64,000 nt of DNA, from NCBI RefSeq assembly GCF_039908645.1, contig NZ_CP150917.1, positions 3,483,501 to 3,547,500 on the forward strand. The letters run 5' to 3'. The notes under the pieces were generated by a model, which made no database searches, was not told the origin of the DNA, and was given only the letters and a program-made list of their open reading frames with translations. The DNA comes from Pseudomonas helvetica. GTDB taxonomy: Bacteria; Pseudomonadota; Gammaproteobacteria; Pseudomonadales; Pseudomonadaceae. A program made the translations under genes and the position numbers. Shown piece after piece: positions 8,360-9,967 of this stretch. The first letter of the stretch is position 1. Each line of letters begins with the position of its first letter.

Positions 8360-9388
8360 TTACACCGGAGCGCCGCACAATGCGGCGCGCTCGGCCACAT
8401 GCCGCAAACTATCAAAATTGATATTGGCCCCCGAGTCGATCGCCACCAGGGTCTGCCCCCAAACACCGGTTTGCGCCACGTACTTCTTGATTCCGGCCAC
8501 GGCCAGCGCGCCGGATGGCTCGGTGATCGAGCGGGTATCGTCGTAGATATTCTTGATCGCCGCGCACAGTTCGTCGTTGCTGACCGTGAGTACTTCATCG
8601 ACATGATGGCGGCAAATTTCAAAGCCATACTCACCGATCTGTGCGACGGCTACACCATCGGCGAAGGTGCCCACTTTTGGCAACACCACTCGCTCTCCCG
8701 CGAGCATTGCTGCTTGCAAGCATGCGGAGTGTTCCGACTCGACGCCGACGATACGGATCTCCGGCCGCAGGTATTTGACGTACGCGGCGATGCCGGCGAT
8801 CAAACCGCCGCCGCCCACCGGGACGAAGATTGCGTCCAATGCGCCTTGATGCTGACGCAGGATTTCCATGGCCACCGTCCCCTGCCCGGCGATCACGTCC
8901 GGATCGTCGAAGGGCGAAACAAAGGTCCGGCCGGTTTGCCGGGCCAGGTTCAATGCGTACTCCAGGGCGAACGGAAAGCTCTCGCCATGCAACACCGCAT
9001 TCGCGCCACGACTGCGCACACCAATCACTTTCAGCTCCGGCGTTGACGTGGGCATGACGATGCTCGCCTCGATCCCCAACTCCCGCGCCGCCAGTGCCAC
9101 GCCTTGGGCGTGATTGCCAGCCGAGGCGGTAATCACCCCGCGAGCCTTTTGCTCGGCACTCAGTTGGGCCAGCTTGTTGTAGGCACCACGAATCTTGAAG
9201 GAAAAGGTCGGTTGCAGGTCTTCACGCTTGAGCAGGATCTGGTTGCCCAGCACCTCGGATAACGCCGGTGCCACCTGCAAAGGCGTGCGCACTGCCAGTT
9301 CATAAACCGGTGCGGCGAGGATTTTTTTCACGTAACGCTCAAGCAGGGCCTGCTTGGCGGTTGCAGTGTCGGTGTTGGTGTCCATCAA
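8360..9388 (-). CDS. Threonine dehydratase, catalytic domain only
   Basis: A PLP enzyme converting threonine (and serine) to 2-oxobutyrate (or pyruvate) and ammonia, the first step of isoleucine synthesis. The 342-residue protein has the PLP lysine in SFKIRGAYNK (Lys65) and the phosphate loop VPVGGGGLIAG. It tracks the catalytic half of IlvA up to the NFDSLRHVAERA junction, then stops after a few residues. The C-terminal ACT-like allosteric domain of classical IlvA (about 500 residues) is absent, and the next gene leaves no room for a frameshifted remnant. Isoleucine feedback may thus be missing here. A leader peptide and terminator hairpin lie 79-144 bp upstream, suggesting attenuation control. 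Confidence 0.9.
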   Translation of the reverse strand: MMDTNTDTATAKQALLERYVKKILAAPVYELAVRTPLQVAPALSEVLGNQILLKREDLQPTFSFKIRGAYNKLAQLSAEQKARGVITASAGNHAQGVALAARELGIEASIVMPTSTPELKVIGVRSRGANAVLHGESFPFALEYALNLARQTGRTFVSPFDDPDVIAGQGTVAMEILRQHQGALDAIFVPVGGGGLIAGIAAYVKYLRPEIRIVGVESEHSACLQAAMLAGERVVLPKVGTFADGVAVAQIGEYGFEICRHHVDEVLTVSNDELCAAIKNIYDDTRSITEPSGALAVAGIKKYVAQTGVWGQTLVAIDSGANINFDSLRHVAERAALCGAPV

Positions 9389-9430
9389 CGTCTCCTGGCT
9401 TTGTTCACGGCCCCGGAGACAGAAAATGAA

Positions 9431-9451
9431 AACCCGCCTCTAGGGCGGGTT
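9431..9451 (-). terminator. Attenuator-like terminator upstream of the threonine dehydratase gene
   Basis: On the minus strand an 8-bp perfect stem, AACCCGCC pairing with GGCGGGTT, closes a short loop and is followed by TTTTCATTTT, the form of an intrinsic terminator. It lies between the leader peptide stop and the dehydratase start. The last sense codons of the leader contain GGCGGG, which could pair with the terminator's 5' arm (CCCGCC) to form an antiterminator. This is the usual arrangement of ribosome-mediated attenuation, inferred from sequence only. Confidence 0.7.
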
Positions 9452-9466
9452 GGGTGCAGTCGTCAG

Positions 9467-9532
9467 CTAGCCCGCCAAATAAGGAATGGCGGTAATAATG
9501 CTTGGCTGGCAGCGCGATACGGTGGAAGTCAT
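9467..9532 (-). CDS. Putative leader peptide for attenuation of the threonine dehydratase gene
   Basis: The 21-codon ORF begins MTSTVSRCQPSIITAIPY and ends with Leu-Ala-Gly and TAG. It holds an Ile-Ile-Thr-Ala-Ile run, so its candidate control codons match the end product (isoleucine) and the substrate (threonine) of the enzyme encoded downstream. The stop codon is 16 bases before the terminator stem. The Shine-Dalgarno sequence is weak (TTCGAGCC), so translation is the least certain point. Confidence 0.6.
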   Translation of the reverse strand: MTSTVSRCQPSIITAIPYLAG

Positions 9533-9631
9533 GGCTCGAAATTAGCTGCGCGCGAAAGGCAAGTCAATGGCCAGTTTTCTGTCGAATGCGATAGTCTTCG
9601 AAAACCGTTCATTGTCCCAAGGAAGGAAAGC

Positions 9632-9967
9632 ATGAAGTCTGTCGCACTCCCGTTGATCGCCCTTCTCGCCTTTGCTGGCTATACCGTTTCAGTGATGCTC
9701 CATGCCGAGCAGTCACTCATCGATTTCGGCATCAGCCTGATGTCCCGCCCCGATACTGCCCAAGTGGTGATCGACCTTTATCTGCTAGCCACCCTCGCAG
9801 GCATCTGGATGTACAAGGATGCCCGGAGCCGTGGCCATTCAGTGTTGTCAGTGCTGCCGTACCTGCTGATTACCGCAGTATTCGTTTCCGTCGGGCCACT
9901 GCTGTATTTGGTGGTGCGCGGGCTTCGCAGCCGAAAAACCAGTGCTGTTTTCGGGCAGCAAGCGTGA
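9632..9967 (+). CDS. DUF2834-like small membrane protein
   Basis: A 111-residue inner-membrane protein with three predicted helices (about residues 4-22, 44-62 and 74-95). The central sequence DLYLLATLAGIWMYKDARSRG is characteristic of DUF2834 proteins, and the following PYLLITAVFVSVGPLLYLVVR fits. Function unknown. The ATG at 9632 has AAGGAAGG about 8 bases upstream. It is divergent from the leader of the threonine dehydratase gene, so both promoters lie within about 100 bp. Confidence 0.75.
   Translation: MKSVALPLIALLAFAGYTVSVMLHAEQSLIDFGISLMSRPDTAQVVIDLYLLATLAGIWMYKDARSRGHSVLSVLPYLLITAVFVSVGPLLYLVVRGLRSRKTSAVFGQQA

Follow-up and report, generated by a model that had tools for sequence, protein, structure and literature searches.

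The locus described here raises the question how expression of a threonine dehydratase gene is controlled that lies on the minus strand of the window, i.e., of the whole stretch of 64,000 nucleotides from Pseudomonas helvetica that was analyzed, behind a short open reading frame and a terminator hairpin. A first-pass annotation had proposed ribosome-mediated attenuation, and this stands as the best-supported reading, since terminator and stems are kept across loci together with the leader frame and its Ile/Thr codons. Very probably, the element is a compact ribosome-mediated transcription attenuator that would sense charged isoleucine tRNA and control the second threonine dehydratase of Pseudomonas. 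Sequence anatomy, conservation, pairing and gene linkage form the basis of this reading, and from these we infer start site, translation, signal and regulation.

Read along the minus strand from 9567 to 8360, the locus comprises, in this order, a -35 element, a -10 element, the leader ATG, the leader ORF, the terminator hairpin, an AGGAG motif and ilvA. The -35 element TTGACT (9562-9567) is followed after 17 nt by the -10 element TAATTT (9539-9544), which ends 6 nt before the leader ATG, a spacing that predicts transcription to start at the A of this ATG (9532). The leader ORF of 21 codons, MTSTVSRCQPSIITAIPYLAG, extends from 9532 to a TAG stop that ends at 9467. According to the leader comparison, it carries the control codons ATT ATT ACC (Ile Ile Thr, 9491-9499) and a further Ile codon ATT (9485-9487). 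Segment 1, CCGCC (9488-9492), is followed by segment 2, GGCGGG, located within the last leader codons (9471-9476), by segment 3, CCCGCC (9444-9449), and by segment 4, GGCGGG (9433-9438). The intrinsic terminator is an 8-bp hairpin, AACCCGCC-CTAGA-GGCGGGTT (9451-9431), followed by TTC with the T-run reaching 9429. Leader ORF, hairpin and the complementarity of segments 2 and 3 (9476-9471 vs. 9449-9444) were thus found as the first-pass annotation had given them. Its distance of 43 bases between hairpin and dehydratase start holds for TTG at 9388, while the likelier start of ilvA is ATG at 9385, 6 nt behind the Shine-Dalgarno sequence AGGAG (9392-9396); from there the gene runs to 8360. What had been overlooked is a match to a known RNA family, the promoter, the shortness of this IlvA in the presence of a longer paralog and a stem between segments 1 and 2 (CCGCC, 9492-9488, paired to GGCGG, 9476-9472), by which the set of three stems is complete.

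A consensus scan yielded two terminator-like sites in the region vs. 1.1 +/- 1.0 in shuffled sequences and, under its stricter rules, no promoter. As the terminator count is near background, the terminator alone is not significant, and its reality is shown by conservation. The exact cassette pattern has one match in the whole 6.4-Mb genome, which rules out a repeat element. In the neighborhood, a small divergent gene on the plus strand (9632-9967, MKSVALPLIALLAFAG...) has its start at a distance of 100 bp from that of the leader, such that both share one intergenic region; its longer ORF has no Pfam match. The leader is preceded, likewise on the minus strand, by an L-asparaginase II gene (PF06089; 9979-11019).

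The sole Rfam match above cut-off in the window, and the only match of this family in the source genome, is RF00624, "Pseudomonas sRNA P9" (9429-9502, minus strand; 90.7 bits, gathering score 43). The RNA described there as an sRNA is the same RNA, with a match that leaves out the promoter and the first 30 nt including the ATG and the peptide N-terminus. In the original work on P. aeruginosa, P9 was reportedly identified by a combination of prediction and Northern blotting, and its position before a threonine dehydratase is said to have been remarked on earlier. Among 298 Pseudomonas genomes, RF00624 occurs above cut-off in 217 and at E <= 0.001 in 224. Eight genomes with weak matches only were read, and five of them proved to contain related cassettes (one, L060, above cut-off), while three were chance-like. 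The weak matches L065-L067, L078 and L080-L086 were rejected, as they resemble chance matches to ordinary terminators or coding DNA.

For comparison we used 71 loci, termed class A (L001, L010-L059 and L088-L107), which are the best-scoring ones together with others picked for variety. L087 was dropped because it is the same place as L052; at L087 (G007:C18:100544-100695) there are tandem P9 matches, the second of them weak and perhaps a duplicated terminator half. Because the loci were chosen by model score or variety, part of the conservation within the 74-nt P9 core follows from the selection itself; ATG, N-terminus and promoter fall outside this core. A further sample consisted of 80 loci from named species, found via IlvA and scored with a covariance model, R1, built from the alignment described below. 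A full match was obtained for 31, one was cut by a contig end and the remainder gave none. All 31 belong to Pseudomonas, e.g., P. protegens, P. chlororaphis, P. putida, P. fluorescens and P. viridiflava, and leader and TTGAC are present in each of them.

With regard to the leader peptide, an ATG-initiated ORF of 20-22 codons in frame with an Ile-Ile-Thr core is present in 71/71 class-A loci, in agreement with the conserved length and codons that the first-pass annotation had anticipated. The 65 distinct leaders have 21 (53), 20 (6) or 22 (6) codons and end with TAG (57) or TGA (8). A count of ATG-to-core distances divisible by three holds by construction unless the ATG is defined by the promoter; with the promoter-defined ATG, the frame agrees with the core in all 69 scored loci (two of the 71 being unscorable), at distances of 33 (62), 30 (6) and 36 nt (1), a count that does not equal 69 independent trials because the loci are related. 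One of the two other frames is stopped in 64 and the other in just three of the 65 leaders, so that an open leader frame by itself is weak evidence. The core reads (I)IIT(A/V/S)I, always with ACC for threonine, and the N-terminal half is free to vary. ATT accounts for 211 of the 239 isoleucine codons in the leaders vs. 137 of 564 in a set of 30 long ORFs from the window. In L048-L051 and L091, one base is lost after the core, which turns the peptide end LAG into WRAC or WRAS and places the stop one codon later, with GGCGGG kept. Since this motif persists while the peptide end changes, the RNA switch appears to be what is conserved and not a working peptide; a functional conserved peptide was ruled out on these grounds together with the free N-terminus. 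Conserved frame, promoter and the test with the promoter-defined ATG likewise ruled out that terminator and ORF stand together by chance.

In 68 of 69 distinct class-A upstream sequences, TAnnnT ends 6 (30), 7 (33) or 8 nt (5) before the leader ATG, and in the same 68 a -35 hexamer precedes it at a distance of 17-18 nt; the exception is L055, where the leader promoter is absent. TTGAC[TGCA] is found in 66/69, and a strict test of promoter placement was passed by 61/69 sequences vs. 3/13800 shuffles. Shine-Dalgarno complementarity before the leader ATG amounts to 3 nt or none in 64/69 and to 4 nt in 5/69; the corresponding counts for ilvA are an unfair control, as a match of 4 or more was required for its start to be called. 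Outside class A, the promoter spacing fits 30 of 40 distinct upstream sequences under looser criteria applied without shuffle control, and a Shine-Dalgarno-like match of 5-6 nt occurs in 4 of 40. Given a spacing of 6-8 nt, the first transcribed base should be the A of the ATG or lie no more than 1-2 bases from it. Judged by this spacing, the class-A leader is probably leaderless.

Pairing was assessed on an alignment of 55 sequences across gene contexts (A1; 23 class-A and 32 other rows, with rows and columns set by hand). For stems 1:2 (helix 1) and 3:4 (helix 2), 88.7% of cells are paired and nine pairs are changed on both sides, a value as high being reached in 0/500 shuffles; shifting the stems by 1-3 columns lowers the paired cells to 35-52%. 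In the terminator hairpin, 98.0% of cells are paired in the 55 sequences, and a single 1:2 pair is broken in L054. In the antiterminator 2:3, 99.1% of cells are paired and a single pair varies (C-G, U-G, U-A). None of its pairs was scored as changed on both sides, and shuffles were as good in 50/500 cases; it does not clearly beat them because its columns barely vary. Antiterminator and terminator exclude each other, and nearly all of the 55 sequences could form either. Covariation of the stems, which the first-pass annotation had named as a check, is seen in 1:2 and 3:4 and not in 2:3, where pairing is kept largely by constant sequence. Folding with a stalled ribosome, named there as well, gave a divided answer for the window leader at one mask size, with the RNA treated as single-stranded as far as 12 nt beyond the base that opens the A-site codon. 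Once segment 3 has been transcribed and nothing further, the pairing probability of 2:3 is 0.99 with the A-site at Ile12, Ile13, Thr14 or Ala15, 0.83 at Ile16 and 0 without ribosome, at Leu19 or at the stop. The full-length RNA folds into the terminator in every ribosome state (3:4 = 1.0), and 1:2 pairing without ribosome reaches 0.55 only. Because the complete RNA always forms the terminator, antitermination must be kinetic, i.e., set by the order of synthesis, as is assumed for such systems, and folding alone is no proof of switching.

According to the mechanism that we propose, transcription would start at, or 1-2 bases from, the A of the leader ATG, and ribosomes would load on the leaderless ORF. 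With ample Ile-tRNA, a ribosome at the stop codon would cover segment 2, the 3:4 terminator would form and termination would free an RNA of about 100 nt that contains P9. When Ile-tRNA is scarce, the ribosome would stall at the Ile (or Thr) codons and cover segment 1, such that 2:3 pairs as the polymerase proceeds, pre-empts the terminator and allows transcription of ilvA. On an untranslated leader, segments 1 and 2 could pair, and termination would be the default.

The presumed target is a short, IlvA2-like threonine dehydratase that consists of the catalytic domain only. Its 341 residues, counted from the ATG, match threonine ammonia-lyase models along their first two thirds, and the biosynthetic model TIGR01124 is matched at positions 2-320 of 499 only. 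The paralog elsewhere in the source genome is encoded by a frame of 507 aa and is 74% identical. An IlvA match lies downstream of the leader in 70/71 class-A loci, the exception being L019, where the contig ends too soon. Among these 70, 35 are short (about 335-361 aa), 28 are open beyond 440 aa and seven are truncated or odd; with lengths varying in this way, the switch precedes full-length as well as shortened enzymes. An IlvA search in 30 Pseudomonas genomes, comprising 8 of the 224 P9-positive and 22 of the 74 P9-negative ones, revealed two ilvA copies in 8/8 of the former and one in 22/22 of the latter. P9 goes with a second ilvA copy. If the attenuator reading is true, a dehydratase without regulatory domain may still be restrained, namely at the level of transcription and not allosterically.

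Related cassettes also occur before other genes. Across the order, RF00624 at E <= 0.001 is present in 34/293 genomes (10 above cut-off) and R1 in 38/293, and across the class R1 is present in 17/369; many of the weakest of these matches are due to chance, and the matches were inspected in part. Class-wide, reading left out L146, L148, L151, L153, L154 and L157, and the leader is absent from L143, L144, L145, L147, L149, L150, L152 and L156. Order-wide, reading led to rejection of L126, L127, L129, L133-L135 and L137, the leader pattern gave no reading for L181, L183 and L184, and L185, L186 and R1 matches without a locus were left out. The loci L119, L123 and L136, the contigs of which are short, were read as L165, L169 and L176.

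SnoaL-like proteins of the SgcJ/EcaC family are encoded behind an Ile-codon leader and terminator in nine Pseudomonas loci (L060, L061, L063, L064, L069, L071, L075-L077), in a sister genus, where a P-loop kinase follows (L111, L112, L114), and outside the order (L139, L140); family models were run on L060 and L111, and the other loci were assigned by similarity of sequence. Two kinds of P-loop kinase are encoded directly behind the cassette, in seven Pseudomonas loci (L062, L068, L070, L072-L074, L079) and in 14 others (L113, L115-L118, L120-L122, L124, L130, L142, L165, L169, L176), with family models run on L068, L113 and L116. The Pseudomonas kinase of L068 weakly matches a homoserine-kinase model (26.8 bits, cut-off 197), which is a lead only, and searches of the kinases against PDB sequences gave no useful identity. 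Ile-rich leaders precede citramalate-synthase-like genes in two genomes of one genus (L125/L177 and L128/L178); for L128, the frame of which is cut by the locus end, CimA is the best model (556 bits, cut-off 950), and L125 was assigned by likeness. Other IlvA proteins are encoded behind the cassette in three genomes, in two of which a recognizable promoter is absent. In L182, the leader MKYAQTFAIYRFIIQHRTVG and a terminator (R1, 35.9 bits) are located before an isoleucyl-tRNA synthetase gene, again cut by the locus end, that reaches 579 bits with TIGR00392 (cut-off 621) and is also matched by MupB-type models. An acetyltransferase gene stands behind the cassette in L155. On a P. aeruginosa plasmid record (L109, 4119-6070), P9 with the leader MTFATLLTRRSIITAIPAMAG is followed by an SgcJ/EcaC gene, the product of which is 43-64% identical to four other family members, and then by a full-length ilvA that overlaps it by 4 nt. 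No IlvA was found downstream in the class-B loci themselves. In L141 (1630-2049), the leader MPKNTNTHTAYSASALIIILAILRNGRVS and a terminator precede a 140-aa ORF that appears loosely SnoaL-like; a usable promoter was not found there.

This gene linkage suggests that the SnoaL-like and P-loop kinase families are connected to isoleucine. We tentatively propose, with a confidence that stays a little short of even, a dispersed isoleucine regulon of leaderless leader-peptide attenuators in Gammaproteobacteria, with P9 as its best-known member and with ilvA2, citramalate synthase, isoleucyl-tRNA synthetase, SgcJ/EcaC and P-loop kinase genes under its control. If true, it predicts a role of the SnoaL-like proteins and kinases in threonine/isoleucine metabolism or in a response to the breakdown of isoleucyl-tRNA charging, whether brought about by natural inhibitors of the synthetase or otherwise.

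The same set of genes can be read differently, namely that the leader mainly senses inhibitors of the ribosome or of isoleucyl-tRNA synthetase and that the genes for kinases, SnoaL-like proteins and acetyltransferase serve to protect the cell. Mupirocin and obafluorin are made by pseudomonads, for several of the cassette genes no part in isoleucine synthesis is known, and one acetyltransferase resembles the GNAT part of the model 'ileS_w_GNAT' (63 bits, cut-off 1999). However, the main target in Pseudomonas is a dehydratase of the biosynthetic type, and such inhibitors would trip the very switch that senses isoleucine, so that inhibitor sensing is not independent of it; as the main function, it is improbable.

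It is quite improbable, too, that threonine charging is the main signal of the attenuator, as might be suspected from the invariable Thr codon of the class-A core and from the fact that the enzyme consumes threonine. Among related leaders such as RIIIIIP, RIIIIP and RIITIIP, Ile codons are kept where Thr goes, the first two having lost it altogether; the route served by the citramalate-synthase-like genes bypasses threonine; and extra dehydratase during threonine shortage would worsen that shortage. Retention of Ile upon loss of Thr, together with the linkage to citramalate-synthase-like genes and, once, to an isoleucyl-tRNA synthetase gene, points to isoleucine. Where the first-pass annotation had left the choice between Ile- and Thr-tRNA, attenuation is thus upheld and isoleucine appears the likelier signal.

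Could P9, in line with its description in Rfam, be a trans-acting sRNA with its own promoter, placed before ilvA incidentally? A terminated leader can act in trans, as stated for rnTrpL of Sinorhizobium meliloti in the accessible part of the source (PMC7298713). Three points argue against this reading, namely the linkage of the same cassette to ilvA or other genes, a frame that is conserved while the N-terminus varies freely, and a pairing pattern as expected of a switch. We consider it very improbable, although all three objections are compatible with an additional trans role of P9. That the hairpin ends an upstream transcript and the leader ORF arose by chance accords with the near-background terminator scan and is nevertheless so improbable, given the conserved promoter, frame, codons and alternative stems and the uniqueness of the cassette pattern in the genome, that it can be dismissed.

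Judged by its anatomy, the element is a real and conserved attenuator. If the attenuator reading is true, it gives a mechanism to an RNA family that is present in most Pseudomonas genomes searched and catalogued only as sRNA, leaderless translation would serve as the sensor of an attenuator beyond the reported alphaproteobacterial case, and two uncharacterized protein families tied to isoleucine offer a testable lead.

No description of P9 or of a Pseudomonas ilvA leader as an attenuator was found in the open literature, which was represented mostly by titles and beginnings of abstracts and did not extend to subscription journals. The statement of the first-pass annotation that no case is described in Pseudomonas thus holds for the attenuator in the literature searched and does not hold for the RNA, which Rfam already lists. 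The terms ilv, isoleucine and threonine are absent from the main text of a terminator screen from 2010, as far as accessible (PMC2965389), as are leader peptide, leaderless, threonine and PA1326 from the accessible text of a P. aeruginosa transcriptome study (PMC3460626). For P. putida, the part of the report available to us describes no histidine-rich leader upstream of hisC-hisD (PMC7822408).

The mechanism as such belongs to a known class. Within the literature searched, what appears to be new is its connection with P9, the leaderless organization, the association with a second ilvA and the wider gene set. Proteobacterial attenuators were reportedly treated in a comparative study in 2004, and the enterobacterial ilvGMEDA and thrABC operons possess ribosome-mediated attenuators. 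Like these, the P9 cassette combines a short leader ORF containing codons of the pathway with mutually exclusive stems and an intrinsic terminator. Unlike them, it comprises about 20 codons and approximately 100 nt with one run of 2-5 Ile codons, does not have a clear Shine-Dalgarno sequence, carries segment 2 inside the ORF (class A) and precedes a single ilvA copy, not an operon, in most loci read. The 5' end of the attenuator RNA coincides with the ATG of the leader ORF in trpL (rnTrpL) of S. meliloti, where it is reported, according to the accessible text (PMC7298713), while in our case it is deduced from the promoter; that system differs in responding to tryptophan, in its 14-aa peptide and in belonging to the Alphaproteobacteria. 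Leader peptides are furthermore described, in the parts of the sources available, for ilvBNC of Corynebacterium (PMC11857589) and, in a leucine-rich version, for branched-chain synthesis in Staphylococcus (PMC5794164), and these control branched-chain amino acid genes as the P9 cassette is proposed to do, in other phyla and before other genes.
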